Source of the DNA: Cellvibrio sp. 79
GTDB lineage: Bacteria > Pseudomonadota > Gammaproteobacteria > Pseudomonadales > Cellvibrionaceae
Length of the DNA stretch: 64,000 nucleotides
Assembly (NCBI GenBank): GCA_003056245.1
Contig: MVDH01000001.1
Location: 2,227,757-2,291,756, forward strand
Direction of reading: 5' to 3'
Shown here: one piece after another, positions 1,429 through 57,257 of the stretch
Numbering within the stretch: the stretch's first letter is position 1
Layout of the letters: the number at the start of each line of letters is the position of its first letter
Made by a program: the position numbers and the translations under genes
Notes under the pieces: model-generated
The model's input: the letters and a program-made list of their open reading frames with translations, nothing else
Databases searched by the model: none
Told to the model about the DNA's origin: nothing

Positions 1429-3264
1429 TTAACGCATTGAATTGCCGATTACACGAATCAATTCACCATCAGCAGTGTCGCCACTTAACTCCCAGAAGAA
1501 AGTACCGGCCAAACCTTGTTGATGAACATAATCCATTTTTCCTACGAGGGTTTGCGGGGTATCGAAGCTCCACCAATTATTACCACAGAAGGAGTAAGCA
1601 GTGCCACCCACGGTACCCGTTGCAGGGCATTTGGATTTCAACACTTTGTAATCATCAATGCCCGCTTCATAAGTGCCAGCTGCTGCACCGGTAGCAGAAC
1701 CACCAGGTGCTGCTTGTGTTACGCCAGTCCAACCACGGCCGTAGAAACCAACACCCAACAAAATTTTGTTCGCTGGAATACCTTTAGATTTCAACAGCTG
1801 AATTGCATTGTCAGAGTTGTAACCGGCAATTGGAATTCCCGCGTAATCGTAAAGTGCTGAATGTGGAGCGGTTGGGCCAGTTTTGTCCCAGGCACCGAAG
1901 AAGTCGTAGGTCATTGGCATATAGAAGTCGAGGTATTGCGCTGCACCCGCGTAATCAGCCGCATTAATTTTTGCAGTACCGGCACCAATTGCAGAGGTAA
2001 TTAATGCGCTGCTGCCGAAGCGTGCACGTAATGCTTGCATCATATTTTTATAACCGGAGAAGCCGCTGGTGGTATCGCATTTCAAACCACATTCGTTGGG
2101 ATATTCCCAATCGATATCAATACCGTCAAACACATCGGCCCAACGTGCATCTTCAACTAACGCATGGCAAGACTCTGCAAATGCCACTGGATTTTGTGCA
2201 GCTTGTGGGAAACCATCCGACCAGGTCCAGCCACCGAATGACCAAATCACTTTCAAATTCGGATTCAGTTTTTTCAGTTTGCGCAATTGGTTGAAGTTAC
2301 CGCGCAGTGGTTGGTCCCATGCATCCGCAACGCCATCCACACTGCCAGCGGCGTCATAGGCTTTGTCATAAGCGGCGTAGGCATCACCGATAGTACATTT
2401 ACCGTTTTGCACATTACCGAATGAATAAAGGATGTGAGTTAATTGTGCCGCAGAACCACTGGTCGCAATATTTTTCACGTGATAGTTACGGCCATAAATG
2501 CCCCACTCGGCAAAATAACCCACTACTTTTTTGCCACCAACAGTAGCAACTGAACTTGAACTGCTGGATACAATCGCGCTGGATTTTGAACTGGCTGCAG
2601 AACTGATTACCGAGCTGCTGGCTACCGAGCTACTAGCTACCGAACTACTGGCCACACTGCTAACAGAAGTTGCCACTGAACTGGCTACAGAACTTTTTGA
2701 TGAGCTGCTTGAACTAACAGCAATTGAACTGGCAACAGAAGATGCTGATGAAACTACACCGCAATTACCTTTGTTTGCCCATACATCGTAAGCACCGGAA
2801 TTATTGAGCGGGTCTTGCCCTTGGGTCCACCATTTCGCCTGATACAGCGCACCGCTGCGACTAACTTGCAGATTACCTGAATAAGCCGCTGCGGCATTCC
2901 ACTCAGCAACACCATTACAACCTGCCGTTGATGTTACAACAGTGCTGCTTGCGACTGAGCTTTTTACTGAGCTTGCTACCGATGTCACACTGGAAGCAGC
3001 GGATGAAGTTGTGGTACCTGAACATGCACCCAAGCTGGACCATGCATTGCTCCACGCCCAACCCGCTCCCGGCTCATAGGGCCCACCGACCGTACACCAA
3101 CCACCGACGGTACAGGAATACGCATTGCCACCTTTTTGTACAATTGCACCGTTAGCATAAGTACCTTGTTGATAATTGGGCACGCCACTGCAATTGTACG
3201 CTTGCGCTTCGGCAGTCATTAAACCTGCTGCCGACAACAACATAATTAACTTAAGCGATTTCAT
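1429..3264 (-). CDS. Secreted GH18 chitinase with two chitin-binding modules
   Basis: A 611-residue exported chitinase. In order: signal peptide (about 1-22, ending AEAQA); a small Cys/Trp-rich module at about 24-81 with 'GGWCTVGGPYEPGAGWAW', resembling CBM73; a Ser-rich linker; a second module at about 115-168 with 'LYQAKWWTQGQDP', typical of CBM5; a long poly-Ser linker (about 169-244); and a GH18 barrel (about 245-611). The catalytic DxxDxDxE signature is present as DGIDIDWE, with Glu near 387 as proton donor. Start chosen at the ATG at 3264 (GAGGAAAAACC before it, and the signal peptide follows directly) rather than an upstream in-frame codon at 3342. It resembles Cellvibrio japonicus Chi18-type enzymes in architecture. 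It acts outside the cell on chitin. Confidence 0.95.
   Translation of the reverse strand: MKSLKLIMLLSAAGLMTAEAQAYNCSGVPNYQQGTYANGAIVQKGGNAYSCTVGGWCTVGGPYEPGAGWAWSNAWSSLGACSGTTTSSAASSVTSVASSVKSSVASSTVVTSTAGCNGVAEWNAAAAYSGNLQVSRSGALYQAKWWTQGQDPLNNSGAYDVWANKGNCGVVSSASSVASSIAVSSSSSSKSSVASSVATSVSSVASSSVASSSVASSSVISSAASSKSSAIVSSSSSSVATVGGKKVVGYFAEWGIYGRNYHVKNIATSGSAAQLTHILYSFGNVQNGKCTIGDAYAAYDKAYDAAGSVDGVADAWDQPLRGNFNQLRKLKKLNPNLKVIWSFGGWTWSDGFPQAAQNPVAFAESCHALVEDARWADVFDGIDIDWEYPNECGLKCDTTSGFSGYKNMMQALRARFGSSALITSAIGAGTAKINAADYAGAAQYLDFYMPMTYDFFGAWDKTGPTAPHSALYDYAGIPIAGYNSDNAIQLLKSKGIPANKILLGVGFYGRGWTGVTQAAPGGSATGAAAGTYEAGIDDYKVLKSKCPATGTVGGTAYSFCGNNWWSFDTPQTLVGKMDYVHQQGLAGTFFWELSGDTADGELIRVIGNSMR
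2609..2653 (-). repeat. 15-bp codon repeat in the poly-Ser linker
   Basis: Three in-phase 15-base units (2609-2623, 2624-2638, 2639-2653; for example ACCGAGCTACTAGCT on the plus strand) encode successive Ala/Ser-Ser-Ser-Val steps of the chitinase linker. They differ at only a few bases, indicating recent slippage growth of the linker. Confidence 0.75.
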
Positions 3265-3315
3265 TGGTTTTTCCTCGGAATCATTTTTGTTTTTTATTGC
3301 ATCGCCTGTTGCATG

Positions 3316-3349
3316 AAATTTATTGCGAAAAGTCTGTTGCAATAAATTT
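3316..3349 (-). promoter_or_regulatory. Inverted repeat upstream of the chitinase
   Basis: A perfect 11-bp inverted repeat, AAATTTATTGC (3316-3326) and GCAATAAATTT (3339-3349), is separated by 12 bases and lies 52-85 bases upstream of the chitinase ATG. The spacing puts it where an operator or a leader hairpin would lie. No regulator is identified. Confidence 0.5.
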
Positions 3350-9972: not shown

Positions 9973-12417
9973 TTAATCTACCAGGCGTAACGCATTGAAA
10001 ATCACGATCAGGGAACTGGCCGTCATACCTATCGCTGCCAGCCATGGCGGAATCATACCAGCCGCTGCCAATGGCAGGGCGAGCAAATTGTACAGCAATG
10101 AAAAACGTAAATTTTGCTGGATAACCGCCTTGGTGCGCCGCGCGATAATTAACGCTTCAGCAATCACCGCCAATTGGTTATTCAACAACACCGCATCAGC
10201 GCGTGTTTGCGCCAGATCTGACGCAGATGCCATAGCGACTGAAACATCCGCCCCAGCCAATACCGGCACATCATTAATGCCATCGCCAATCATCAGCACT
10301 TTATCACCTGCCAGTTGGCGTGCACTTAAGTGTGACAATTTGTCGCCCGGATTTGCACCAGCAATAAAAGTATCAATCCCTAACTGTTGTGCCAAATAGC
10401 TGACAGCGGCCGGCTGGTCTCCACTCAACAGTTCTATGGCAATTCCCTGCTTTTTCAAGGTTTGAATCAATACTGGCGCATCAGGCCGGATCTCATCCGC
10501 CAGACCAATCCAGGCAAGCAGGTGATTTTCATCGGCCAGCAACAACCAGGTGTGATGGCTTGCTTGCGACAAAGAAGCTTGCGGCAATTCGAGTGTTTGG
10601 TCTGTGCCGAACCATTCCGCCAGAAATGAAATTGTGCCCAAACGGTAAGCTGTATTGTCGATGCGCCCTTCAACGCCAGCGGCGGTGATTTGCCGGATAT
10701 CCGACGCAACGACCCGATCACGCCACGGGTTAAATGCCGCCGCGAGCGGGTGATTGGAACCGGCTTCCAACGCGGCGGCAAGGGCGAGCAATTCATCGCG
10801 CGATAATATTGTCGACGAAACTGGAATAACATTTTCAACTACAAACTGGCCGCGTGTAAGTGTGCCGGTTTTATCGAAGATAACGCGAGTAATATCATTT
10901 AATCCTTCGATCACATGGCCGCGTGCAACCAGAAAACCGCGCTTGCGCAAATTCGCTGTTGCTGCCGATAAGGCAGCTGGCATCGCAAGTGCTAACGCGC
11001 AAGGACAAGTAACGACCAAGACCGACAGCGTGATCCAGAAAGCATCCTCGGGCCGATACCACATCCAGAACGCAAACACTGCGCTACACACTATTAATAA
11101 ACGTGCGATAAAAAACCGCGCAGTGCGATCAGCAGCTAATACTTGTTGTGGTTTTTCTTCTGCGGCCCGTGTTGCCATGCGCTCAATTGCGGATAACTGC
11201 GTTTGCCCGGCAACCGCAATTACTTCAACTTTTAATGGGCTATGTTGATTCATCGTGCCAGCAATAACTCTATCGCCCGCCGCTTTTGTCACTGGATGAG
11301 ACTCGCCGGTCAGTAACGCTTCCACCACTGCACTTTGCCCGGCGATAACGCGGCCATCGCACGGAAACGTTTCACCCGGTTTTACTAAAATAAGATCGCC
11401 GGGTTTCAATACAGTTAATGGCAAATTTTGTTCGATTTCGCAGCCATTTTCTTCACGTAAACAACACGCCGTTAATGGCATTAATTGCGCGAGATTACCA
11501 AATGCCAGGCGATTGCGATGACGCGCGCGCAATTCCACATAGCGCCCCAGTAATAGAAAAAAAGTGAACATCGAAACGGATTCAAAATACACCTCACCGG
11601 TGCTGGTGATAGTGGCCCAAACGCTCGCGAGATACGCCAGACCTATCGCCAACGCAACGGGAACATCCATTACCAAATGCCGCATTTTTACGCTACGCCA
11701 CGCGGATTGAAAAAACGGCCATGCCGAAAAAAATACTACCGGCGTTGCCACCAGCATTGACAGCCAACGCAAAAAATCCAGCCAGAAATCCGTGGCGCCG
11801 GTGTACATTCCCACCGCAACCATCATCGCTTGCATCATGCCAAAACCGGCAACGCCAATACGAAACAGAGCAATGCGATTTTCTTTTTTAATTAATTGTT
11901 GTTGCTGGTCATCCGTAGCCGGGCGCGGTGTATAACCAATTGCGGCGAGCGCACGAAAAATTTCACTGAGTGATTCGCGAGCATCCCAAACGATTGCACA
12001 ACGATGCGTGCTGACATTCACCGTGACCGATTGAATTGCGGGATTTTTTTTGAGATGAGTTTCGATCAACCAGCTGCATGCAGCGCAGGTAATGCCTTCG
12101 AGTAATAAATTGGCTTGTTTGAAAGAATCGTCGAAAGGAACAACAAACTCGGATTGCACTTCCGGTAAATCATAAATAGCAAATCGCTGATCGCCTTGCG
12201 GATTGGTATCAGGACGATCATTCGCTACTGTACGGAACTGATAAAAATTTTCCAGGCCACCATCGACAATTGCCATCGCAACCGCCTGGCAACCCGGGCA
12301 ACACATTAATTGCTCCTGCCCCTGAATTCGCACTGGATAATAGCTGGCTTCAGGAACAGGTAAACCGCAGTGGTAACACGCTTGCGATTTAATCGGTGTT
12401 GCGCCGGTTTCACTCAT
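9973..12417 (-). CDS. ccoI: Copper-transporting P1B-type ATPase CcoI
   Basis: An 814-residue P-type ATPase supplying copper for cbb3 oxidase assembly. Order of domains: an N-terminal Cys cluster ('CYHCGLPVP', 'CCPGCQAV') typical of FixI/CcoI, a heavy-metal-associated domain with 'GITCAACSW' near residue 107, six to eight membrane helices, the metal-site 'CPCALA' in 'VTCPCALALAMP', the phosphorylation motif DKTGTLT, and the hinge 'MIGDGINDVPVL'. All catalytic elements are intact. It is the fourth last gene of the minus-strand run ccoG-ccoH-ccoI-ccoS-tauE-like, starting five bases after ccoH. Substrate Cu(I) is by family. Confidence 0.95.
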   Translation of the reverse strand: MSETGATPIKSQACYHCGLPVPEASYYPVRIQGQEQLMCCPGCQAVAMAIVDGGLENFYQFRTVANDRPDTNPQGDQRFAIYDLPEVQSEFVVPFDDSFKQANLLLEGITCAACSWLIETHLKKNPAIQSVTVNVSTHRCAIVWDARESLSEIFRALAAIGYTPRPATDDQQQQLIKKENRIALFRIGVAGFGMMQAMMVAVGMYTGATDFWLDFLRWLSMLVATPVVFFSAWPFFQSAWRSVKMRHLVMDVPVALAIGLAYLASVWATITSTGEVYFESVSMFTFFLLLGRYVELRARHRNRLAFGNLAQLMPLTACCLREENGCEIEQNLPLTVLKPGDLILVKPGETFPCDGRVIAGQSAVVEALLTGESHPVTKAAGDRVIAGTMNQHSPLKVEVIAVAGQTQLSAIERMATRAAEEKPQQVLAADRTARFFIARLLIVCSAVFAFWMWYRPEDAFWITLSVLVVTCPCALALAMPAALSAATANLRKRGFLVARGHVIEGLNDITRVIFDKTGTLTRGQFVVENVIPVSSTILSRDELLALAAALEAGSNHPLAAAFNPWRDRVVASDIRQITAAGVEGRIDNTAYRLGTISFLAEWFGTDQTLELPQASLSQASHHTWLLLADENHLLAWIGLADEIRPDAPVLIQTLKKQGIAIELLSGDQPAAVSYLAQQLGIDTFIAGANPGDKLSHLSARQLAGDKVLMIGDGINDVPVLAGADVSVAMASASDLAQTRADAVLLNNQLAVIAEALIIARRTKAVIQQNLRFSLLYNLLALPLAAAGMIPPWLAAIGMTASSLIVIFNALRLVD

Positions 12418-12421
12418 CGAG

Positions 12422-12970
12422 TTAGTTTTTTACTCGCGGCGCAAGTTGGGTTGCATCCCCGAGCTGGAAATTAATCTCGCCGCTTATGGTCCAGGGCGCT
12501 TCATTGCGCTGGGCAATATCATTAATGGGATACAGTGTTAAATACCAGGAATACTCCGGCTTCTCCAACAGCTCACCGCGATAATATCCGGGTGAAATAT
12601 ATTTCAGCGTAATTAATTGATCCTTTGCCGCTTTAACCGGGTGCCCCATCATTAATAACAATTCTTGCGGCATCAATTTTTCATCGGCGGGTACATTGGC
12701 AATTTTCAAAATAATATCGCCCGTAGTGAGATCAAAACGTAAATCCCCGCTTAAACCCAGTTCGCTCGCACGCTGGTCTTGCCCTAGTGCCTGATTGATC
12801 ATCCGACCTTCTTTGTAGTAATTGTCAATGATCACATCATCTGCACCTTTAAGTGCAATGGTCACGGTAATCGAACACATAATGATGATGTAGATCAGCG
12901 GAGCAAATACAAACCAGAACCAAAATTCGCGGTACCAGGGTTTTGCAATTTCATCATTGGTATCAGCCAT
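12422..12970 (-). CDS. ccoH: cbb3 oxidase assembly protein CcoH (FixH)
   Basis: A 182-residue FixH/CcoH protein, with the family start 'KPWYREFWFWFVFAPLIYIII' giving one N-terminal membrane anchor (about 18-40), and a periplasmic immunoglobulin-like remainder with 'VIIDNYYKEGRMINQ', the conserved segment after the helix. CcoH is an assembly factor that stays with the oxidase. The ATG at 12970 is preferred over an upstream TTG at 12991 because AGAGGC precedes it. It lies 35 bases after ccoG and just before ccoI. Confidence 0.92.
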   Translation of the reverse strand: MADTNDEIAKPWYREFWFWFVFAPLIYIIIMCSITVTIALKGADDVIIDNYYKEGRMINQALGQDQRASELGLSGDLRFDLTTGDIILKIANVPADEKLMPQELLLMMGHPVKAAKDQLITLKYISPGYYRGELLEKPEYSWYLTLYPINDIAQRNEAPWTISGEINFQLGDATQLAPRVKN

Positions 12971-13005
12971 AGCGGTGCCTCTCGTTTGCACAACAATTTC
13001 CCCAA

Positions 13006-14415
13006 TTATGGACCAATGAAGGTCGTGGTATTAGTTGTCGTAATTTCCGGATTTTCGCGCGCGCGAATACGGAAATGAATTTCGGTTTTTGTGGTTGTCA
13101 GCTCAGTTGCTTTTACTGAAACACGCACGGGCACTGTCAGCACTTCACCTTCAACAGCAGGAATAATTTTGTAACCCTGGATGATAAATGGATAATCGCC
13201 GTCGACTTCCAGATCATAGGTATGAGTGCCGCGATCCATATTACTAATTTTCAAGGTGTACACATTCTGAATCGTATCTTCCACTTCGCGATACATACGC
13301 ACACCGCGATCACGCTGTGCTTCCAGGCCAACCGGAACACGCGTCGCAATTGAATAAACGAACAGCGAAATCATAATCGCGAGCATCAGCCCGTAACCAA
13401 TTAAACGCGGACGAAATACCTGGGTATGGCCAGTGCTGATTGCATCCTCAGTGGTGAAGCTGATCAGACCGCGCGGATAACCCATTTTATCCATGACGGT
13501 GTTGCAAGCATCGACACACAAACCACAATCGATACATTCCGCTTGTAAACCTTCGCGAATATCAATGTCTACCGGGCAGACCTGCACACACCAGGAGCAA
13601 TCAATACAATCGCCCATGCCTTTAGCTTTGTAATCTTCGCCGGCTTTGCGCGGGCCACGTTTTTCACCACGCAAACTATTATAAGAAACCGTCAGTGTAT
13701 CCTTGTCATACATCACCGCTTGAAAACGGGCATAAGGGCAAATGTACTTACAAAATTGTTCACGCATAAAACCGGCATTCATGTAAGTAGCACCGAGGAA
13801 CAGCAAAACCCAGAACAGCGGCACAAGATCGAGACTAAAAGTAAATAACCCGGTGACCAGTTCGCGTGCCGGCATGAAGTAACCAACAAACGTTAATGAG
13901 GTCACCAGGCTGATAGCAATCCATATAAATTGCTTGGCTGATTTGCGCCAGATTTTTTCGAAATTCCAGGGCTGGGCATCCAACTTGATCCGCTTGTTAC
14001 GATCACCTTCACACAGATGCTCCGCCCAGATAAACATTTGCGTCCACACCGTTTGCGGGCAAGTAAATCCACACCATACGCGCCCGACCAGAACGGTAAC
14101 GGTAAACAACAAAAAGGCGGCAATAACCAACAACCAAGCGAGATACATTGCATCTTGCGGCCAAAAAGTTAGCCAAAGGATATGAAACTTGCGTGCAGGC
14201 AAATCAAAAAGAACGGCCGGGCGATCATCAATAACCAACCACGGCAAGAGCAGAAAGCCGAGCATCAGCGGCAAACCGGTGTAGCGACGCAAACGCTGGT
14301 AAAAACCGGTGATACGACGCGTATAGATCTTGTCATCCGCCTCGTAGAGATTTACGTAACGAATACCAGTATCGGGCGATGCCGGTTTTTGCTCTGATGA
14401 AGGTTTCTCAGCCAC
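13006..14415 (-). CDS. ccoG: Ferredoxin-like membrane protein CcoG (RdxA/FixG)
   Basis: A 469-residue polyferredoxin-type membrane protein. Several hydrophobic helices surround 'GFTCPQTVWTQ' and 'CKYICPYARFQ', then two 4Fe-4S clusters are bound by 'CIDCSWCVQVCPVDID' and 'CIDCGLCVDACN' (about residues 265-305), and an Ig-like FixG C-terminal domain follows (about 350-469). CcoG has been described as a cupric reductase in cbb3 biogenesis. Translation starts at a GTG with AGGT upstream. It opens the assembly operon, after the ccoP terminator. Confidence 0.95.
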   Translation of the reverse strand: MAEKPSSEQKPASPDTGIRYVNLYEADDKIYTRRITGFYQRLRRYTGLPLMLGFLLLPWLVIDDRPAVLFDLPARKFHILWLTFWPQDAMYLAWLLVIAAFLLFTVTVLVGRVWCGFTCPQTVWTQMFIWAEHLCEGDRNKRIKLDAQPWNFEKIWRKSAKQFIWIAISLVTSLTFVGYFMPARELVTGLFTFSLDLVPLFWVLLFLGATYMNAGFMREQFCKYICPYARFQAVMYDKDTLTVSYNSLRGEKRGPRKAGEDYKAKGMGDCIDCSWCVQVCPVDIDIREGLQAECIDCGLCVDACNTVMDKMGYPRGLISFTTEDAISTGHTQVFRPRLIGYGLMLAIMISLFVYSIATRVPVGLEAQRDRGVRMYREVEDTIQNVYTLKISNMDRGTHTYDLEVDGDYPFIIQGYKIIPAVEGEVLTVPVRVSVKATELTTTKTEIHFRIRARENPEITTTNTTTFIGP

Positions 14416-14478
14416 AGCTTTACCTCGTTGCTCCCGCCTTTTTGACCACTATTAAGTAGAAAAGGCTAATTGGACGCG

Positions 14479-14507
14479 AAAAAAAAGGCAGGCTTTTAGC
14501 CTGCCTT
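14479..14507 (-). terminator. Terminator of ccoNOQP
   Basis: A perfect nine-bp stem, AAGGCAGGC (14485-14493) and GCCTGCCTT (14499-14507), with a five-base loop, followed by eight T on the minus strand. It separates the structural operon from ccoG. Confidence 0.92.
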
Positions 14508-14521
14508 CCTTGCATCAGGAA

Positions 14522-15436
14522 TCAGTTAGATTCCAATGACAGGCTGTACACGTAAGCAGCCAGCAGATGGATGCGATCTTCTTTCAACAACTCCTGTTGG
14601 GCTGGCATCACCCCACTGCGGCCATCGCGAATGGTTTGACGGATAGTGGCAGCCTTGCCACCGTACAACCAGATTTTATCGGTCAGGTTTGGAGCACCAA
14701 CCAGCGGATTCCCCTTGCCATCCGCGCCGTGGCAAACCACACAATTGGCCGTAAAGAGCTTCGCACCTTTCTCAGCTTTTTCAGCGTCATGTTTGTTACC
14801 GGATATCTGCAAAACATATTCTGCAACATCCACTACGCCTTCTTCACCGATGATGTTACCCCAGGATGGCATGGCTGCCTTACGACCATGAGTGATGGTT
14901 TCCAGGATTTTTTCCGGAGTACCGCCATAAAGCCAGTCTTTGTCGGTCAGGTTCGGGAAGCCAGGGTTACCACCGCCGTCTGCACCATGGCAAACCGCGC
15001 AGTTGTTGGCAAACAAACGGAAACCCATTTTCAATGCATCAGGGTTTTTCGCCACTTCTTCAATAGATTGCTTTGAATAAACACCGTAAGTTTCTGCATA
15101 TACTTTTTCAGCTTCCGCCTGGTGTCCACGTAACTCACCGACAGAGGTCCATGCCGGAGCATCTTTAAACTTCAAACCTTCATAAGAACCATACCCGGGA
15201 TAAATAATCAGGTAGCCAATAGAAAATACGAAGGTCAATAAAAACATGTAGAACCACCAACGCGGCAGAGGATTATCATATTCCTCGATACCATCGTATA
15301 CGTGACCAGTGGTTTTGGCTTCCGTGCTCTCTTCGCCCTGAACCGCCTTTTTACGGTTGGCCATGAGAATCCAGAACAACAGCACCAGATTGGTGGTTGT
15401 CAGGATAATGATCCAAAAACTCCAAAAAGTACTCAT
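14522..15436 (-). CDS. ccoP: cbb3 oxidase di-haem subunit CcoP
   Basis: A 304-residue cytochrome c subunit. Two membrane helices (about 5-27 and 58-80) precede two class I cytochrome c domains with haem-binding CAVCH (near residue 146) and CVVCH (near 235), each followed by a Gly-rich 'GADGGG' or 'GADGKG' turn. Met ligands lie in the 'AAMPSWG' and 'GVMPAQQ' segments. CcoP passes electrons from periplasmic c-type cytochromes to CcoO. It is the last gene of ccoNOQP. Confidence 0.96.
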   Translation of the reverse strand: MSTFWSFWIIILTTTNLVLLFWILMANRKKAVQGEESTEAKTTGHVYDGIEEYDNPLPRWWFYMFLLTFVFSIGYLIIYPGYGSYEGLKFKDAPAWTSVGELRGHQAEAEKVYAETYGVYSKQSIEEVAKNPDALKMGFRLFANNCAVCHGADGGGNPGFPNLTDKDWLYGGTPEKILETITHGRKAAMPSWGNIIGEEGVVDVAEYVLQISGNKHDAEKAEKGAKLFTANCVVCHGADGKGNPLVGAPNLTDKIWLYGGKAATIRQTIRDGRSGVMPAQQELLKEDRIHLLAAYVYSLSLESN

Positions 15437-15459
15437 ATTAAATCCGCCCTAATCGATGA

Positions 15460-15654
15460 TTACTTGCGATCATCTGTCTGGTTGTTATCTGCCTGGGTTG
15501 CGGTCGGCTTGTGCTGTTCATCATCGGCAAAGGGTAACTTCGCATCTTCCTCAAAGCGCTTTTTTAATTTAGGCGAGAACGCCCAGAAGCACACACCGAA
15601 GAAGGCGATGGTTACCAGTACCGTTGAAATTGCGCCGACTGTACCTGCGTCCAT
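15460..15654 (-). CDS. ccoQ: cbb3 oxidase small subunit CcoQ
   Basis: A 64-residue protein with one membrane helix (about 5-27, 'GAISTVLVTIAFFGVCFWAF') and a polar tail ('KLKKRFEEDAKLPFADDE'), matching CcoQ, which stabilises the oxidase. Its ATG shares one base with the ccoO stop (TAATG), indicating coupling. Confidence 0.92.
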   Translation of the reverse strand: MDAGTVGAISTVLVTIAFFGVCFWAFSPKLKKRFEEDAKLPFADDEQHKPTATQADNNQTDDRK

Positions 15655-16265
15655 TAGCGTTTCTCTTTCAGTAATACGCCAAGGTTTTGCAGGTACGCCA
15701 CCACTGCATCCATTTCTGTCGCGCCCTTCACTGCGCGCGCTGCACCGGCCATATCTTCTTCAGTATATGGAACACCCACTTTGGCCAGCGCACGCATTTT
15801 ATCTGCAGTGTGTTTGCCATCGAGTTTGTTGTCATACAACCATGGATAAGCAGGCATGATGGATTCAGGTACAACAATACGCGGGTTGAACAAGTGCACT
15901 TTGTGCCAGTCATCCGAATAACGACCACCTACGCGGGCCAGGTCCGGACCGGTACGCTTGGAACCCCACAGGAACGGATGCTCGTAAACAGATTCACCGG
16001 CAACAGAGTAATGGCCATAACGCTCAACTTCTGCACGTAACGGACGCACCATTTGGGTATGGCAAACGTGGCAGCCTTCACGGATATATACATCGCGACC
16101 TTCCAGTTGCAATGCGGTAAGAGGCTTCAAGCCTTCTATTGGTGTTGTAGTTTGCTTGAGGAAAAACTGCGGAACAATTTCTACCAAACCACCAAAACTA
16201 ATGGCGATAACCATAAACACAGTCATCAGGCCGATATTCTTTTCTACTATTTCATGACCTTTCAC
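15654..16265 (-). CDS. ccoO: cbb3 oxidase mono-haem subunit CcoO
   Basis: A 203-residue membrane-anchored cytochrome c. One N-terminal helix (about 10-35, following '[10 protein letters not shown]') is followed by the haem c site CHVCH near residue 61 in '[15 protein letters not shown]'. '[10 protein letters not shown]' probably supplies the axial Met. Translation starts at a GTG with AAGGGGAA upstream. It lies ten bases after ccoN. Confidence 0.96.
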
Positions 16266-16275
16266 AGCATTCCCC

Positions 16276-17727
16276 TTACACAGCTGGTGCCTGGACAGGC
16301 TGGTTAGTAGCAGCAGCTTCGTTGGCTGCCTTAACGGTGCGATAAGTGTTGTACGCCATTACCAGCATACCGGTCAAGAAGAAAGCACCGCCGATAAAGC
16401 GCATGATGTAACCACCTTTACTGAACACCACAACCTCAATAAAACTGTAAGTCAAAGAACCGTCCGGGTTGAATGCACGCCACATCAGGCCTTGGCCAAT
16501 ACCGTTAATCCACATCGCAACCACATACAGAACGGTACCTACAGTTGCCAACCAGAAGTGGGTATTGATCAACTTCACACTGAACATCTCTTCACGGTTA
16601 AACAGCTTCGGCAGCATGTGATACACAGCACCGATAGAAATCATCGCCACCCAACCCAATGCACCGGAGTGAACGTGACCTACGGTCCAGTCGGTGTTGT
16701 GAGACAAAGCATTTACGTTTTTGATAGCCATCATCGGGCCTTCGAAGGTAGACATACCGTAGAACGACAGGGCTACTACGAGGAAACGCAAAGTTGGGTC
16801 AGTGCGCAATTTGTGCCATGCACCGGACAAGGTCATGATGCCGTTAATCATACCGCCCCAGCTTGGAGCCAACAGAATCAGTGACATCACCATACCCAGA
16901 GATTGGGTCCAATCAGGCAATGCAGAGTAATGCAAATGGTGAGAACCAGCCCAAATGTACAGGGAGATCAACGCCCAGAAGTGAACGATTGACAATTGAT
17001 AGGAGTAAACAGGACGACCTGCTTGCTTGGGTACGAAGTAGTACATCATGCCCAGGAAGCCCGCCGTCAGGAAGAAACCTACTGCGTTGTGACCATACCA
17101 CCATTGCACCATTGCATCGGCAGCACCTGCGTAAGCAGAATAGGATTTGGTCAGGGTAACAGGGACAGCCGCGCTGTTAACAATATGGAGTACAGCAACA
17201 GTTACGATAAAACCACCGTAGAACCAGTTAGCTACATAGATGTGCGAGGTACGACGTTTCACAATTGTGCCGAAAAACACAATTGCGTAGGAAATCCACA
17301 CTATCGCCAACAGGATATCGATTGGCCACTCAAGCTCAGCATACTCTTTGGCGGAGGTCATACCTTGCGGCAAGGTAATAATGGCCAGCAGTATGACCAG
17401 TTGCCATCCCCAGAAAGTAAATGGAACCAACCAACCACCAAATAGCGGCGCCTGGCAGGTACGCTGTACTACGTAATAAGAGGTTGCAAAGAGCGCACTG
17501 CCGCCAAACGCAAATATAACCAGGTTCGTGTGGAGAGGGCGCAGTCGACCGAAGTGTGTAAACGGTTGAAACAGGTCGTTAAGGCCTGGCCATACCAATT
17601 GAGAAGCGATCAGCACACCAACACCCATCCCCAATATGCCCCAAACGATGGTCATAATGGAGAATTTGCGCACTATATCGAAGTCGTATGCTGGTGGATC
17701 TCCAGCAACTGTTGCATGACTACCCAT
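16276..17727 (-). CDS. ccoN: cbb3-type cytochrome oxidase catalytic subunit CcoN
   Basis: A 483-residue haem-copper oxidase subunit I with about twelve membrane helices that reduces O2 at a haem b3-CuB centre with high affinity. Conserved pieces are readable: '[14 protein letters not shown]' (haem b ligand His), '[17 protein letters not shown]' (CuB and Tyr-containing region), 'HYSALPDW' and '[15 protein letters not shown]' (haem ligands). It begins at an ATG with AGGAAAG before it. A perfect FNR/Anr box lies about 165 bases upstream, in line with microaerobic induction. Confidence 0.97.
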
Positions 17728-50085: not shown

Positions 50086-53000
50086 TTAGCTGCGCCCATT
50101 AGCCCTTTTCAGGACAGGCAACGCAAAACCAAATAGTGATAGCAATAGCAGTTCAATCCAGGCAACTGCCCCACCTCCCCCACCACTACCTTTGTCACCA
50201 CCAGTTGATGCAGCGCTGCTTGATGCAACGCTACTCACAACCACTGAAGAACTTATCGACGAAGAGCTACTAACAACAGAACTTGAACCCATAGCACTGG
50301 AAATTCGCGTCGAACTGATGCTGCTTGCTCCTGCACGCGATGAAACTGAACTTGATGCCACGCTACTTGATACAACCGAACTTGAACTCGATAGTGTTTT
50401 GCTCGAACTCGAAGAACTTACCGGATTAACAATAACAGCCGAACTTGAAGAACGCGACGAACTTGCCACCGAACTTGTCACGACGGAAGAACTTGCAGAG
50501 CTGACACTGGATGACCGCGAACTGGAGGCGACTACCAGTGAACTACTTGCCCGTGATGATGAGAACAACGACGAGCTGGATGAGGACAACGACGAGCTGG
50601 ATGAGGAAACAACCGGCTTCAGGTTCGATGTCCATTCAATCGCTTTACGAATCATCTCTATCATTTTGGGATCGGCAAAATTCGCTTCAACGTGCCCAAC
50701 AGCAGTATAAAAGGTTCGGCCTTTTCCAATACTGTTGGTATAAATCACCGGATGATCTGCCACCGGATAATTAGAGGTATAACTGCTGCGATCCAAAGTA
50801 CCGAGCACTTCCACACCGCTACTTGCGCGCGGATTGTTATTCCAGAAATACCATTCATCACTCAACATCCATTCAGTGCCGATGTGATTAACCAATACGT
50901 TGGTCGTTTTTTCGATAACGACTTTTGCACGTGGAATTCCATCACCGTGGTGAATAAATTCACCGCCACCTAACAACGTGTCGGTATACCAATCCCAATT
51001 GTGCTCGGTATCGGCAGCAGCGTGGGTGCCGACAAATCCGCCACCATTTTCGATGTAGGATTTAAATGCAGCGCGTTGATCCGCCGTGAAAATATCGCCG
51101 GTGGTATTCATAAAAACAATCGTGGAATATTTCGCCAGGTTCGCTACGGTGAACAACGTGGAATCTTCCGAAGCCGTCACGGTAAAACCATTATCAGCGG
51201 CAATCTGTTGCACCATCGCAATACCTGCCGGAATGGAATCGTGACGGAACCCAGCGGTTTTGGAAAAGATCAGCACATTCGGGCAGGCACTACCGCAACT
51301 TACGCGGAACTTACGTGTTCTCGGTACACCCACTTCATTGCCATTGCTGTCGATGAGACTCACACGAATACTGTGTTGACCGGTAGGTAAAATACCCAAA
51401 TCAATTTCATTGGTATTACCTGCAACGATTGCAGGTGCATTATCCAATGAATAAACAAAACCATTGCTATTCAACCAATCGGGATCGGTAATATCCACTT
51501 TTAATTTTATGGATTGTGTTTGATCAACCACTGCATTTGAAATGGGTGCAGCAATATCAATCAACGCAATGTTGTTAACCGCCTCCAAACCATAAGCTTC
51601 AAACTCCCACAATGAATAGCCGTAATCTGTCGCACGTACTGTACCGTGCATGCGAATGTAGCGGCCTTTTTGTCCATCAAGTGCAATGGTTTCCACTCCG
51701 CCGCGACCTGTCGTTGTGGTGTAGGCGTTTTTCCAGGTATCACCATCTTCTGATACATCGATAGTGTATGACTTCGCGTAAGCAGGTTCCCAACGCAAAA
51801 CCACTTGTGTGAAGTAAATATTTTTACCCATGTCGAGTTGCAAATATTGCGGATCAATTTTCGCCTGGCTTTCCCAACGAGTGGCGATATTGCCATCAAT
51901 ACCGGCAGCCGCATTATTGCCACCAAGGATTGAAGACGCAGTTGCTGTTACCGGCGTTAATTCTCCAGGCACACCAGGCACTACTGATGGTGTTCCGAGC
52001 GATGTAATCCATTGATCCAATAACGCAATATATTCCTTATGCTCTATTGCACGGCCAATAGGTGGCATACGGTCATTGGGATCAATACTTTTATCACGTA
52101 AATATAAAATGGAATTTTTTACATCACCGGCCGCAATCACTTTTGCAGCCGTAATACCGTAATCCGCTTGATAATCACGAATGCCGGTTGTGCCTGCATT
52201 GATAATTTTCATTTGGCTAACCGGTGTATTAAAACGCGCATCCCATTGCGAACCGCCATTACCGGTGCCATGGCAATGTGCGCAGTTTGCATCAAGGTAA
52301 GATTTAACACGCTTTTCCAATGAGGCACTGGTATCACTGAGCGCTGCCAACTTATCAAGCGAGCCAACCTGCGCGTTGTTTAATGCAGGAGAAAATAATC
52401 CCAGATTATTCCAGCGCACCAATTGGTTTTCTGTTTTATCCGCGTAAGTGTAATTGCCGTTAAGCTGGCGTGTACTCGCACCGAGAATTTTACTGGATGC
52501 CTGGTTGTGGCAACTTAAACAATCTGCCGGGCTTGGGTAGTGCCAGGTTTGGGTTGCAGTAGAACCATCGGCATTGGTGATAGAAAATGTTTGTTGATCA
52601 CCGCTCGTGAGTAAATCCGCATCGCTATTATCCGCACGCCATTTATAAGTTACGCCATAGATGGTGCCGTCGGCCTTAGTGACAATCAAACGCGTTTCGA
52701 GTCGCTTGGTGATAGAAGGATTGCGCGCATCAACTGGCAAATCAAATTGTTTGATTGCAACCGTTCCTTCGGGGAAGATCCAACTATCTTTTGCGCTCCA
52801 TTGGATTTTTGTATCTTTCGGCAACGAAATCCAGCGGAACTTTTCTGCACGATCTGACCACAGCGGGCTATTGGGAGTAAAAGGTAAAAGATGCGTCGCC
52901 GGTGTTACCGTACTTACATTTATAAACGCGCCGGTCTGCGATAATAATTTAGGAACGCCGGTAAAACTGGCATCCAGTGTGCGCGGCATATTGAGGTAAG

Positions 53001-54765
53001 CGTGTTCAGTCAGTGGCTTTTCCGGCTCAACTTCTTTCGCCGCATACACTTCAAGTTCGTAAAACGAATGGCCATAGTTAGTCGCACGCTCAAGTCCGCT
53101 GAAGCGAATATATTTATACGCGTTGGTATTACTGATGATATGCAATTCCGTTTTGCCACCGCCTTTATTTTGCGTGACCAACGTATCCCAATTCGTACCA
53201 TCAGCAGAGGCTTCAATTAAATATTTGGAACTGTAAGCCGCTTCCCACTTGATTACGATGGTGCCAATCACGGCGCTTTGTGTGAGCGTGAGTTCAAATG
53301 TTTGTGGATTGGAACTCGCACTTTCCCAACGCGAGTTTACATCGCCATCAACTGCTTTCGCGGCGGTATTGCCACCAGCATTGGAAGAAGCATTAACTGT
53401 TGCACCCAACGCGAGATTGGGACCATTATCGCGATCACCAATATAATCGTAGCGATAAATAACACCGTTGCCAAAGGGCTCTTTATCGCAGCAACCCGAT
53501 CCCCATTGCATGACATAAAGTTGATGCGTACGCGGATCAAGTTCCGCATCAATTGCACCCATTACCCCACCGGTGTTGATCGGCATATCTTCTGCGACAG
53601 GTGGGTTATCAGTTGCGGCGAGATTAATGGTTGAAAATTTACTGCTATTGAAATCCCAAAAAATTAAACGGCCGTCGTAGTACGCCGGTAATTTGAAATC
53701 ATTTTCTATCGCATCATCAAAACGATAAACAGGTCCCGCCATGGTTGCCTGGTGGCGAATAGTCCAGAGTGCCGGTTTCGCCGCCGGAAGATTTTTTGCA
53801 CCGGTGTTGCCGCTTGCATTATTAACGATGGTGGTTGCGTTGTAGCCGGCATAAGGTTGGTTGTAACCGATAATGTATGGCCATCCATAGTTGCCCGCTT
53901 CACGCAGCTCGTTCAATTCATCAAGACCGCCAGGGCCTTCTGCACTGTCTGCCGAGGCATCAGGGCCTATATCACCGAGATATAGATAACCGGTTGCTGG
54001 ATCTATATTGATGCGAAAGGGATTGCGAAAACCCATGCCGTAAATTTCTGCGCGATGTGTTGCATCGGCGGGAAATAAATTCCCCGCCGGAATTGTGTAA
54101 CCACCTGCAGCGGTAGGTTTAATACGCAACACTTTACCGCGCAAATCGTTGGTATTACCCGATGTGGTTTGCGCACCGGCCGCAAAATAACCCGACGCCG
54201 CATTGTTATCACCGGTAGTGATAATTAAATTGCCATCATTATCAAATACCAAACTGCCGCCCATATGGCCATGGGCTTCGTTGCCAGTAATCCATTCAAG
54301 GAGAATTTTTTCCGAAGCAGTGTCCAGCGCATTATTGGCTTGCACGGTAAAACGCGATACGCGGGTTTTACTGCCTGGTGACGTGTATTGAACATATACA
54401 TAACCATTTTGGGTAAATTGCGGATCAAGGGCGACGCTCAGCAAACCATCCTCAAATACACAACGCACATTGGGTACGGTGGATGTTTGGGTGGCAACAC
54501 CGCCGTCCAGATTCCAACCATAAAATTTACCGCATTTGCTGACAACAAAAATACGGCCATCTTTTGAAATCGCAAATTCCATCGGCAAATCCAAACCTTC
54601 CGCAACCACTACCCGCTGGAAATCAACAGCTGTTGGCGCTTGCGCCATTGCAACAGGTGCACCGAAAAATGCCATCGAAAAAGAGGCAATGAGTGCGGTT
54701 CGGCAACGATTCGGGATCGCTAGTAAATTGCGCAAAATAGTGGATGAATTACATAAACGATTCAT
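50086..54765 (-). CDS. Giant exported glucose/sorbosone dehydrogenase-haem c-ThuA fusion with GlyGly-CTERM tail
   Basis: About 1559 residues. Signal peptide (about 22-42, ending AMAQA); a beta-propeller of the glucose/sorbosone dehydrogenase type (about 45-442) with 'HGHMGGSLVFD' carrying the probable catalytic His and 'GFRNPFRINIDP'; a discoidin-like F5/8 C domain (about 449-577); a di-haem region (about 588-922) with CLSCH and CAHCH, resembling Shewanella SO_2930 as remembered; a second F5/8 C (about 933-1059); an Ig-like stretch; a ThuA domain (about 1163-1379, 'GGGFVGTHAAAD'); a long poly-Ser linker; and a GlyGly-CTERM-like end (Gly run, hydrophobic helix, KRANGRS). ATG at 54765 has GAGAGG before it. 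Second gene of an operon. It may oxidise extracellular sugars and pass electrons to the haems; substrate is unknown. Confidence 0.85.
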   Translation of the reverse strand: MNRLCNSSTILRNLLAIPNRCRTALIASFSMAFFGAPVAMAQAPTAVDFQRVVVAEGLDLPMEFAISKDGRIFVVSKCGKFYGWNLDGGVATQTSTVPNVRCVFEDGLLSVALDPQFTQNGYVYVQYTSPGSKTRVSRFTVQANNALDTASEKILLEWITGNEAHGHMGGSLVFDNDGNLIITTGDNNAASGYFAAGAQTTSGNTNDLRGKVLRIKPTAAGGYTIPAGNLFPADATHRAEIYGMGFRNPFRINIDPATGYLYLGDIGPDASADSAEGPGGLDELNELREAGNYGWPYIIGYNQPYAGYNATTIVNNASGNTGAKNLPAAKPALWTIRHQATMAGPVYRFDDAIENDFKLPAYYDGRLIFWDFNSSKFSTINLAATDNPPVAEDMPINTGGVMGAIDAELDPRTHQLYVMQWGSGCCDKEPFGNGVIYRYDYIGDRDNGPNLALGATVNASSNAGGNTAAKAVDGDVNSRWESASSNPQTFELTLTQSAVIGTIVIKWEAAYSSKYLIEASADGTNWDTLVTQNKGGGKTELHIISNTNAYKYIRFSGLERATNYGHSFYELEVYAAKEVEPEKPLTEHAYLNMPRTLDASFTGVPKLLSQTGAFINVSTVTPATHLLPFTPNSPLWSDRAEKFRWISLPKDTKIQWSAKDSWIFPEGTVAIKQFDLPVDARNPSITKRLETRLIVTKADGTIYGVTYKWRADNSDADLLTSGDQQTFSITNADGSTATQTWHYPSPADCLSCHNQASSKILGASTRQLNGNYTYADKTENQLVRWNNLGLFSPALNNAQVGSLDKLAALSDTSASLEKRVKSYLDANCAHCHGTGNGGSQWDARFNTPVSQMKIINAGTTGIRDYQADYGITAAKVIAAGDVKNSILYLRDKSIDPNDRMPPIGRAIEHKEYIALLDQWITSLGTPSVVPGVPGELTPVTATASSILGGNNAAAGIDGNIATRWESQAKIDPQYLQLDMGKNIYFTQVVLRWEPAYAKSYTIDVSEDGDTWKNAYTTTTGRGGVETIALDGQKGRYIRMHGTVRATDYGYSLWEFEAYGLEAVNNIALIDIAAPISNAVVDQTQSIKLKVDITDPDWLNSNGFVYSLDNAPAIVAGNTNEIDLGILPTGQHSIRVSLIDSNGNEVGVPRTRKFRVSCGSACPNVLIFSKTAGFRHDSIPAGIAMVQQIAADNGFTVTASEDSTLFTVANLAKYSTIVFMNTTGDIFTADQRAAFKSYIENGGGFVGTHAAADTEHNWDWYTDTLLGGGEFIHHGDGIPRAKVVIEKTTNVLVNHIGTEWMLSDEWYFWNNNPRASSGVEVLGTLDRSSYTSNYPVADHPVIYTNSIGKGRTFYTAVGHVEANFADPKMIEMIRKAIEWTSNLKPVVSSSSSSLSSSSSSLFSSSRASSSLVVASSSRSSSVSSASSSVVTSSVASSSRSSSSAVIVNPVSSSSSSKTLSSSSSVVSSSVASSSVSSRAGASSISSTRISSAMGSSSVVSSSSSISSSVVVSSVASSSAASTGGDKGSGGGGGAVAWIELLLLSLFGFALPVLKRANGRS

Positions 54766-54815
54766 GATTCCTCTCAACCTGGACGGCAAATTTTTTAATA
54801 ATTAATAAATTTTTC

Positions 54816-57257
54816 TTACAGTGACTGAAGAAATTTAATCAACGCACCACGATCAGTCTGGCTCAAATCACTGTAAGCCTGCGCAGACTCAAGACCTTCA
54901 CCGCCGTGCCACATAATCGCTTCGTGTAAAGTCCGTGCGCGCCCATCGTGCAAATAATTCGCACTGGGATTACATTTTTCGCCGCCGTCAACGCCGTCCG
55001 CACTGCCGCCACGTGAACCAGTGACACCGCCCGTTACACAAGGCGATAATCCAATCCCCCACAAAGGCGGCGTGCGCCACTCGGAACCGGATGCTTCACC
55101 TTCGCGCAGGTTGTCGGCGAGGCCGGTGCCCATGTCATGCAACAAAAGGTCGGTGTAAGGATGAATAACCTGGTCGCGCACTTCAGAAAGTGGTGCGTAG
55201 GTGCTGGTGGTAAATGTTTCAACGTGACAAGCGGCGCAGCCCACATCGGTAAACATTTTTTTGCCACGAATAACATCTGCGTCCTGGTAATCGCGTTGCG
55301 AACGCACGCCGAGCAACTGAATATATTTCACAAGATTATTAAGATGTGCTTCGGAAAGTTCAGAGCCGGATGAATTTTCACAACCATTTTGTGCAGAGCC
55401 GCAATCCGGTGTGGGAATTACTGATGTCATCACCCCCATATCGGTATTTAATGCGATTGCAACCTGATGACGCACGCTCGCCGCTGTTGCTTTGTAACCA
55501 AAGCGGCCAAGGCGCCATTGTTTTGTTTCAGGCTCAAATACTTTTTGCGCCCTGCCGGAAATGCCATCACCATTCGCATCGTCTTCGTCGACGAGTGCAA
55601 GAATTGCTGATTCCGGAATAGCTTCCAGCAATCCCATACCGACAAGTTGCGGAGCAATGCGCGCGGAAAATTGTGCGGGAGCACCCTGCTCAAAGGTGAA
55701 GTTGGGTTTGCGTAATCCATCGGTTTCCGTGAAGGAAGTGATGAACACATTTCCCTCCCCTTGTGTTCCATTATTTGCATGTTGTGGTTGCAAAACGCGC
55801 CCGATATCCGGAAGCGGATTGCCATTCGCATCGGCAACTTTGAAAACCCATTTTGTTAATGGCTCCGCTACCGCTGCAACCGGCGCACGACCATTTCTGT
55901 TGTGGCACATCACGCATGAGCCATTAATAAAATAAGGGCCGGCTTTACCAATCATTTCATCGAAATGACCATTCTCTTCCGATTCATCATGGCGGCCATC
56001 AGTAAATTCTGTGTGCGCCAAACGACGACCCAATACAAATGGTTGGCCGTTGTCATAACCAAGGCCATACGCCATTTGCATAAAATGATCATCGGGTTCC
56101 GCCGAAATCTGGCGATTCAAACTGTGCTTTCCACCGAGCATCGCTGCAGCAGGTAATTCAATCGAATCGCGCTGATACGTTTTACCCTGGACAAAGGGCG
56201 CCATATCAGTCACGTCCCACGGAACCAAACCTTTTCCAACAACATATAAAAAAGTACTACCGTAATAGTGATCGCGACCGCGCGGCAATACGGTCTTGTC
56301 CATAAATTGGCTAATTTCGATTTCCAATTTATCGCCAATTTGAATGGGGCGATTTTCCCGGCAGTTGTAATTGGATTCTTTCCAATAATGGGTTTGGTCA
56401 ATCACATTCATCACACCGTTGCCGCAAAATTCCGCGAGCGTATTTTTTCCGATATACCACCATCTATTTTCTGCTTGCAGGTCATCCAGTTTGCTCAGGG
56501 TGGTGACATTCATGCGAATGCCGCTACCGCCTTTGGCGACGTAATCGATAATCTCAACGGAAGCGGTACGATTTTCCCAATAGAACGCGAGGTAATGATC
56601 GTGTAATTGAAAATGGTTTTCCTTGGCATGGCGGTCGCGCGCGCGATCAGAAAAACGGGTAACTAACGCATCGCCGCGATCAAACTGGATATCCGCCTCT
56701 AACACTGTATTTTGATTAAAAAGTGGAACCAGTGTGATCGCACTTGCCGCACTGGAAGATGAAACAGAATTAATCGACGAAGCAATTGAACTTGACGATA
56801 CGAGCGAGCTTGATGATGAAAGCACACTCGATGATGACGAGCTTTTACTTGAACTAATTGACGATGAACTAATTAACGATGAACTAAGGACCGAGCTTGA
56901 ACGCGAACTTGAAACTGCCAGGCTGGATGAACTTGATTTAATGCTCGAACTTGCCACAACAAGGACAGAAGAAAACGCACTGGATTTGCTGCTCACGGAT
57001 AAGCTTGATAACTGGACTACCGAACTGGAAACACCCACAGAGCTGCTCGATAATGAACTACTTATAATCGAACTGATACTAACAGCAGTGGACGATGCAA
57101 CAGTGGATGAAACCGAAATGGATGAAACCAAGCTGGATGAAACTGAAGAACGGGAAACTGCTGGTTGCCCTGAATCATCACTGCCACCGCCTCCACCACA
57201 CGCAGTGAGTAACAATGTAAAACTGCTCAATAATCCTATCGAAGATAAAACACGCAT
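54816..57257 (-). CDS. Poly-Ser lipoprotein with di-haem oxidoreductase (DHOR) domain
   Basis: An 813-residue exported protein. Lipobox LTAC puts the lipid Cys at 20, followed by GGGGG and a poly-Ser spacer of about 140 residues (34-172). The rest includes a family-typical DHOR/COG3488 region with haem c motifs CVMCH (448-452) and CAACH (674-678), and signature stretches 'GDGISGRAQKVFEPE', 'RLGRFGYKA' and 'LHDGRARTLHEAIMWHGGE'. Such proteins are described as putative thiol oxidoreductases or peroxidase-like. The spacer could hold the domain away from the membrane. First gene of the operon, 50 bases before the dehydrogenase fusion. AGGAG precedes the ATG. Confidence 0.87.
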   Translation of the reverse strand: MRVLSSIGLLSSFTLLLTACGGGGGSDDSGQPAVSRSSVSSSLVSSISVSSTVASSTAVSISSIISSSLSSSSVGVSSSVVQLSSLSVSSKSSAFSSVLVVASSSIKSSSSSLAVSSSRSSSVLSSSLISSSSISSSKSSSSSSVLSSSSSLVSSSSIASSINSVSSSSAASAITLVPLFNQNTVLEADIQFDRGDALVTRFSDRARDRHAKENHFQLHDHYLAFYWENRTASVEIIDYVAKGGSGIRMNVTTLSKLDDLQAENRWWYIGKNTLAEFCGNGVMNVIDQTHYWKESNYNCRENRPIQIGDKLEIEISQFMDKTVLPRGRDHYYGSTFLYVVGKGLVPWDVTDMAPFVQGKTYQRDSIELPAAAMLGGKHSLNRQISAEPDDHFMQMAYGLGYDNGQPFVLGRRLAHTEFTDGRHDESEENGHFDEMIGKAGPYFINGSCVMCHNRNGRAPVAAVAEPLTKWVFKVADANGNPLPDIGRVLQPQHANNGTQGEGNVFITSFTETDGLRKPNFTFEQGAPAQFSARIAPQLVGMGLLEAIPESAILALVDEDDANGDGISGRAQKVFEPETKQWRLGRFGYKATAASVRHQVAIALNTDMGVMTSVIPTPDCGSAQNGCENSSGSELSEAHLNNLVKYIQLLGVRSQRDYQDADVIRGKKMFTDVGCAACHVETFTTSTYAPLSEVRDQVIHPYTDLLLHDMGTGLADNLREGEASGSEWRTPPLWGIGLSPCVTGGVTGSRGGSADGVDGGEKCNPSANYLHDGRARTLHEAIMWHGGEGLESAQAYSDLSQTDRGALIKFLQSL

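Follow-up and report, generated by a model that had tools for sequence, protein, structure and literature searches.

The window analysed here is a 64,000-nucleotide stretch of Cellvibrio sp. 79 (contig MVDH01000001.1, forward-strand positions 2,227,757 to 2,291,756), and its reverse strand carries two adjacent genes, A and B, for large exported haem proteins. Our analysis suggests that they encode a surface oxidoreductase pair in which B would oxidise a sugar and A would use the electrons at β-1,3-glucan. We give this reading a probability of roughly 0.38, a modest confidence because the cofactor, the substrate and the reaction of A are all inferred. The two proteins would be co-transcribed and displayed on the outer surface, A through a lipid at its N terminus followed by a poly-Ser stretch and B through a C-terminal lipid anchor of GlyGly-CTERM type. 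The glucose/sorbosone dehydrogenase (GSDH) propeller of B would draw electrons from a sugar, or from a sugar end, and pass them to an SO2930-like di-haem domain, with F5/8 type C (F5/8C) domains and flexible linkers keeping B on carbohydrate. The di-haem centre of A, of the type found in MauG and bacterial cytochrome c peroxidase (BCCP), would accept these electrons and, seated on β-1,3-glucan through a CBM56-like domain, spend them with H2O2 or O2 on a reaction at or beside the polymer. The pair would work like the AA12 and cellobiose dehydrogenase (CDH) proteins, which join a dehydrogenase, a cytochrome and a carbohydrate-binding module (CBM), with a di-haem enzyme as partner. The locus offers a concrete, testable surface redox pair, and, according to PMC10916295 (2024), no bacterial enzyme playing the part of CDH had been identified.

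Gene A (54816..57257, reverse strand, as are all features of the pair) is an intact open reading frame (ORF) for an 813-residue DHOR lipoprotein. Gene B (50086..54765) encodes a GSDH/di-haem/ThuA giant of 1559 residues from its likely ATG; the ORF 50086-54789 is intact and has 1567 residues, and residue numbers of B are counted from its TTG at 54789. The ATG at 54765 is the most likely start rather than this TTG, and lies 50 nt past the stop of A. A promoter and terminator scan found an 11-pair terminator-like stem just past B (50058-50033) and none between the two genes. This operon-like layout agrees with the two-gene operon proposed in the first-pass annotation, and because of it A and B are likely one transcription unit.

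We found that B opens with a Sec-type signal peptide read from the sequence (54643..54765) and a GSDH β-propeller (53440..54639; residues 51-450, with an inferred end). Pfam GSDH PF07995 matched residues 66-319 at 146 bits against a cut-off of 25, and the propeller gave PDB profile matches to soluble glucose dehydrogenase (sGDH) and Asd, and also to hedgehog-interacting protein. F5_F8_type_C reached 131 bits over two stretches, the second at 51604..51945 by Pfam; the first (53020..53418) has approximate limits drawn from domain 2 and paralogs. The SO2930-like di-haem domain (51997..52953) aligned with model positions 2-314 of the 314 in TIGR03806; its score of 240 bits is under the curated cut-off of 313.3. 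The domain contains the haem c motifs CLSCH (from residue 757, 52507..52521) and CAHCH (from residue 836, 52270..52284). There follow a putative Ig-like spacer (51295..51582), similar stretches of which recur in relatives, a ThuA domain (50629..51279; PF06283, 211 bits against a cut-off of 33.4), a poly-Ser linker (50293..50613, residues 1393-1499) and a Gly-rich, hydrophobic and basic tail resembling GlyGly-CTERM (50089..50202).

Gene A begins with a lipoprotein signal read from the sequence, with an LLTAC lipobox (57198..57257), and a poly-Ser tether (56772..57161, residues 33-162). Its C-terminal di-haem domain (54819..56153) has a BCCP/MauG fold in the predicted model and the haem c motifs CVMCH (from residue 448, 55902..55916) and CAACH (from residue 674, 55224..55238). 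The match to DHOR PF06537 scored 243 bits (cut-off 22) and spans profile positions 212-499 of 499 alone; a conserved domain sits N-terminal of it. That domain, a β-sandwich (56220..56675), is CBM56-like by fold likeness only: it matched no Pfam family at E 0.01, and so not CBM56 PF22184, and Foldseek gave nothing for it at E ≤ 0.001. The first-pass annotation had described A as a poly-Ser-tethered lipoprotein with DHOR and two haem c motifs and B as a fusion of GSDH, F5/8C, two haem c motifs, ThuA and poly-Ser; Pfam, NCBIfam, the motifs and the lipobox bear out both, with all four domain types it named for searching (GSDH, F5_F8_type_C, ThuA, DHOR) found by Pfam. The tail of B had been overlooked there.

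The surface location it gave both proteins is likely. For A the lipobox makes it likely that an N-terminal lipid holds the protein at the outer surface. In Vibrio cholerae, rhombosortase cuts the GlyGly-CTERM tail, a glycerophosphoethanolamine-containing moiety is joined and the protein reaches the surface via type II secretion (PMC6219818). The genome of the window has a rhombosortase match of 136.9 bits against a cut-off of 84, with three more under the cut-off; in 14 control genomes the same model gave matches in all 14 and none over the cut-off. The same tripartite tail ends L046, the B ortholog of genome G022, and two further proteins of the window's own genome carry poly-Ser-Gly tails (L012, L015). 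Tail and rhombosortase gene together suggest that B is likely surface-held by a C-terminal anchor.

What A may act on is indicated by its relatives. The A unit was matched in 92 of 144 family genomes (E ≤ 1e-40), with four matches in its own genome, and a genome scan confirmed at least 597 relatives. The best 80 of these include Alteromonadales, Planctomycetota, Verrucomicrobiota and Myxococcota, and many match the di-haem half alone; our set A5 comprised the window and 32 of the 80 loci, leaving out L117 (57 stops) and L121 (one stop). Relatives carry CBM6/35, CBM56, F5/8C or thrombospondin repeats in one chain. Eighteen DHOR ORFs from 17 regions were examined, 16 of the regions chosen for long frames (others, such as those of G041 and G065, left out) and one from the own genome, and 14 of the 18 have an N-terminal GH16 domain. 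One such GH16 end was tested and resembles solved laminarinases (8xph, E 1.2e-28). GH16 was also present in three of six further proteins scanned, one of which, L096, is apparently the same gene as L213, their contigs being of equal length. The loci L205-L218, L099 and L101 encode GH16-(CBM)-DHOR proteins, a laminarinase with a di-haem oxidoreductase, in Cellvibrionaceae-type genomes and marine relatives, and L219 (G024) has two DHOR genes close by, one with two CBM56 stretches.

These GH16 and CBM56 fusions, together with the GH26-DHOR protein Xyn65, point to a probable tie of the A family to β-1,3-linked polysaccharides. The authors of Xyn65 described DHOR in glycosidases as new to them and guessed at an oxidoreductase or binding role (PMC9638140). 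Our literature searches did not meet the GH16-DHOR architecture; they covered a small part of the matching papers, which is weak evidence of absence. The repeated joining of this di-haem family to laminarinases makes direct haem action on polysaccharide testable. A broader proposal would make the ~640-residue DHOR unit, in many cases joined to GH16 or GH26 hydrolases, a class of polysaccharide-active di-haem enzymes, a haem counterpart of the lytic polysaccharide monooxygenases (LPMOs) for β-1,3-linked glucans and xylans, to which the operon in the window would add a surface-anchored, sugar-driven reductase. We hold this broader proposal to be rather doubtful.

The predicted BCCP/MauG fold of A, together with the Pfam annotation of DHOR as a putative peroxidase, would also suit protection rather than attack, with A a surface peroxidase removing H2O2 and B its sugar-driven reductase. 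However, detoxification needs no fusion to laminarinases or CBMs, yet the family has them, and we consider such a role unlikely, if worth keeping in view. The first-pass annotation had instead supposed that the pair might feed electrons to LPMOs. The genome has six LPMO10 genes, the nearest being ~30 kb away from A and B, and reduction of Lpmo10B can be initiated by X183, a c-type haem domain of Cbp2D (PMC12542752). However, no LPMO10 gene lies within the window, the partners of the A family are GH16 hydrolases and its probable tie is to β-1,3-glucan, and in TERTU_3803 the cytochrome and GSDH domains were unable to supply an LPMO with electrons (PMC12055684). Supply of LPMOs thus appears improbable, and the specific link is not upheld. 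The proposed link in style to a nearby chitinase also falls away, as the GH18 chitinase at 1432-3342 is ~47 kb distant.

To return to a pair acting at β-1,3-glucan, we asked how often A and B occur together. The GSDH-F5/8C-SO2930-...-ThuA chain was examined at 17 loci (the window, L006 and L046-L060), and at three of them, the window, L046 and L059, a DHOR gene lies directly 5' of the giant. DHOR lies ~4 kb from the giant at L006 and L048, and at L049 ~3 kb 5' of the giant was covered. Among the best 80 of the at least 597 DHOR loci, taken with their flanks, GSDH and SO2930 were found nearby only at L131. Using ORFs of at least 180 residues, we detected no genes in common between the window flanks (~17 kb) and those of L046 (11 kb) or L059 (12 kb), and the same synteny test against L055 gave ten rows, one an antisense ORF. 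In a tree of 41 units (two pairs of rows identical, and one, L006_C8, long-branched) the paired label needs two changes, forced by the starred branches. Two separate pairings in different settings would argue for a working partnership. At L055 (G015) itself, a tail-less giant stands between coq7-like and CRP-like genes (labelled by eye), a few kb from the spot matching the place of the window pair in its own genome.

Several results weigh against this reading of the pair. Adjacency is rare, at three of 17 loci, which speaks for each protein also functioning by itself, and two label changes also arose in 23 of 500 shuffles of the tree. No promoter-like site was found 5' of A in the scan, whose overall totals lie below those of shuffled sequence (7 terminator-like against 9.9, and 7 promoter-like against 14.6). 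The TIGR03501 HMM did not match the B tail alone, nor was B among its four genome matches at E ≤ 1, and because of this the tail is a likeness to GlyGly-CTERM rather than a member by HMM; it occurs at only two of the 17 giant loci (window and L046), the others stopping at ThuA.

The cofactor of B belongs on the same side of the balance. In E. coli Asd the arginines of an RxRD motif and a Lys near the C terminus are what we take to be the anchors of pyrroloquinoline quinone (PQQ). Profile and multiple alignments set the RIRD of Asd against G-A-I-D in B and its Lys against Asn; the PQQ residues of sGDH are Arg408 and Lys377 (PMC6881789). B scored 68 bits against a cut-off of 434.55 for TIGR03606 (sGDH/Asd). 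PqqC was found in none of 21 genomes of the genus, of which 16 have a completeness of 90% or more and a contamination of 5% or less. In the family, 11 of 144 genomes gave a match over the cut-off with the same model; it matched nothing in 14 control genomes, and the family search therefore serves as the positive control. The best PqqE match in the own genome reached 59 bits against 381. With RxRD and Lys apparently lost and no PqqC found, PQQ dependence of B is doubtful, and the locus warns against calling such propellers PQQ enzymes. The sugar-oxidase step of the first-pass annotation keeps its GSDH domain, but is doubtful as the work of a PQQ enzyme. A T. turnerae propeller of like annotation failed to bind PQQ (PMC10916295).

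The same losses would suit a B that is a binding scaffold with a catalytically dead propeller and haems serving unrelated electron traffic. Hedgehog-interacting protein, which the propeller also matches, is a non-enzyme. However, all 13 sequences compared share H175, R255, N256, the G285-P286 Ca loop and D290-E291 without variation; these positions align with sGDH and presumably act as catalytic His, Arg-Asn and Ca loop. The loss of the bacterial PQQ residues is moreover not decisive, because AA12 binds PQQ via a partly different residue set (PMC6881789); the AA12 family is missing from the Pfam output for A and B. We regard a dead propeller as an unlikely though live account. A PQQ receptor was also considered and rejected, as three TonB receptors tested were nearer BtuB (under its cut-offs) than PqqU, and the next gene on that side in the window is no TonB receptor. 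A TonB receptor lies 3' of the giant at seven of the 17 loci (L006, L047, L048, L049, L050, L052 and L059), the one at L006:15247-17145 being BtuB-like.

The B core was matched in 94 of 144 family genomes (E ≤ 1e-30), mostly partially, and its relatives bear on the role of ThuA. ThuA stands N-terminal to GSDH-SO2930 at L061 and L062 and to GSDH-PKD-cytochrome c at L064 in the own genome, and a 1201-aa frame in the L147 genome joins ThuA and GSDH. Such reshuffled domain orders among relatives hint at one pathway in which ThuA, GSDH and haem c may all act. ThuA is linked to 3-keto sugars, and B could make these: its GSDH would oxidise a glycoside at a hydroxyl of the ring, the keto product would go to ThuA for processing and the haems would export electrons, with A as outlet. 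The fusion of the three domains in at least three orders fits such a route, as do four matches over the cut-off to DUF1080, the 3-keto-disaccharide hydrolase, in the own genome, and LacABC-type dehydrogenases and DUF1080 proteins have been described in pathways for 3-keto glycosides (PMC9007349). However, none of the four DUF1080 places is near the pair, the available part of that paper does not mention ThuA, and our literature searches gave no ThuA-GSDH paper. Production of keto-sugars therefore seems to us a minority possibility.

Two further observations concern the own genome. At L007:10550-17128 lies a 2192-aa protein with three CBM26, GSDH, SO2930, Big_2, cytochrome and planctomycete-type PSD/PSCyt (DUF1592/1588) domains, followed by an ORF that we take to be DUF1552-like. 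In the window, positions 9976-17727 hold cbb3 oxidase genes (CcoN, CcoP, FixG-like) adjoining a heavy-metal P-type ATPase.

Each half of the proposed pair can be compared with known systems. MauG and BCCP share the fold predicted for the C-terminal domain of A. They are periplasmic or target a protein partner, whereas relatives of A carry the domain in one chain with glycosidases and CBMs. Cbp2D and Cbp2E of Cellvibrio japonicus, apparently the same genus, are likewise exported modular haem proteins with CBM2, X158 and X183 modules of their own. The likeness of style drawn in the first-pass annotation stands, but Pfam found no CBM2 in A or B. The cofactor of CDH is a flavin. Fungal AA12 CcPDH and CDH follow the same plan of dehydrogenase, cytochrome and carbohydrate binding, but have a b-type haem and an established cofactor (PMC6881789, PMC8981238), whereas A and B have c-type haems and PQQ is doubtful.

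Gilvimarinus xylanilyticus Xyn65 (GH26-CBM31-CBM6-Big-DHOR) also places DHOR in a β-1,3-linked polysaccharide system (PMC9638140). There DHOR is fused to the 1,3-xylanase, whereas gene A encodes a stand-alone lipoprotein next to a giant that resembles a dehydrogenase. Teredinibacter turnerae TERTU_2567 / E7_MBN_03865 combines GSDH with a c-type haem domain and is in the secretome (PMC12055684). Judged only by mass and domains, it likely corresponds to the L222 protein GSDH-SO2930-PA14-CBM10-CBM5 (1324 residues, 142.6 kDa), the secreted protein having 143,269 Da with CBM5 and CBM10 and being likened by its authors to AA12 (PMC12055684). It shares GSDH-SO2930 with B but has CBM5/CBM10 in place of F5/8C and ThuA, and no DHOR gene is among the ORFs listed in its 9-kb stretch. 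The parts are thus known; the pairing of A with B and the double anchoring, neither met in the literature searches made (weak evidence of absence), would be new, as would the breadth of the GH16-DHOR fusion. GSDH-cytochrome-CBM proteins and DHOR-glycosidase proteins are separate precedents for each half of the pair.

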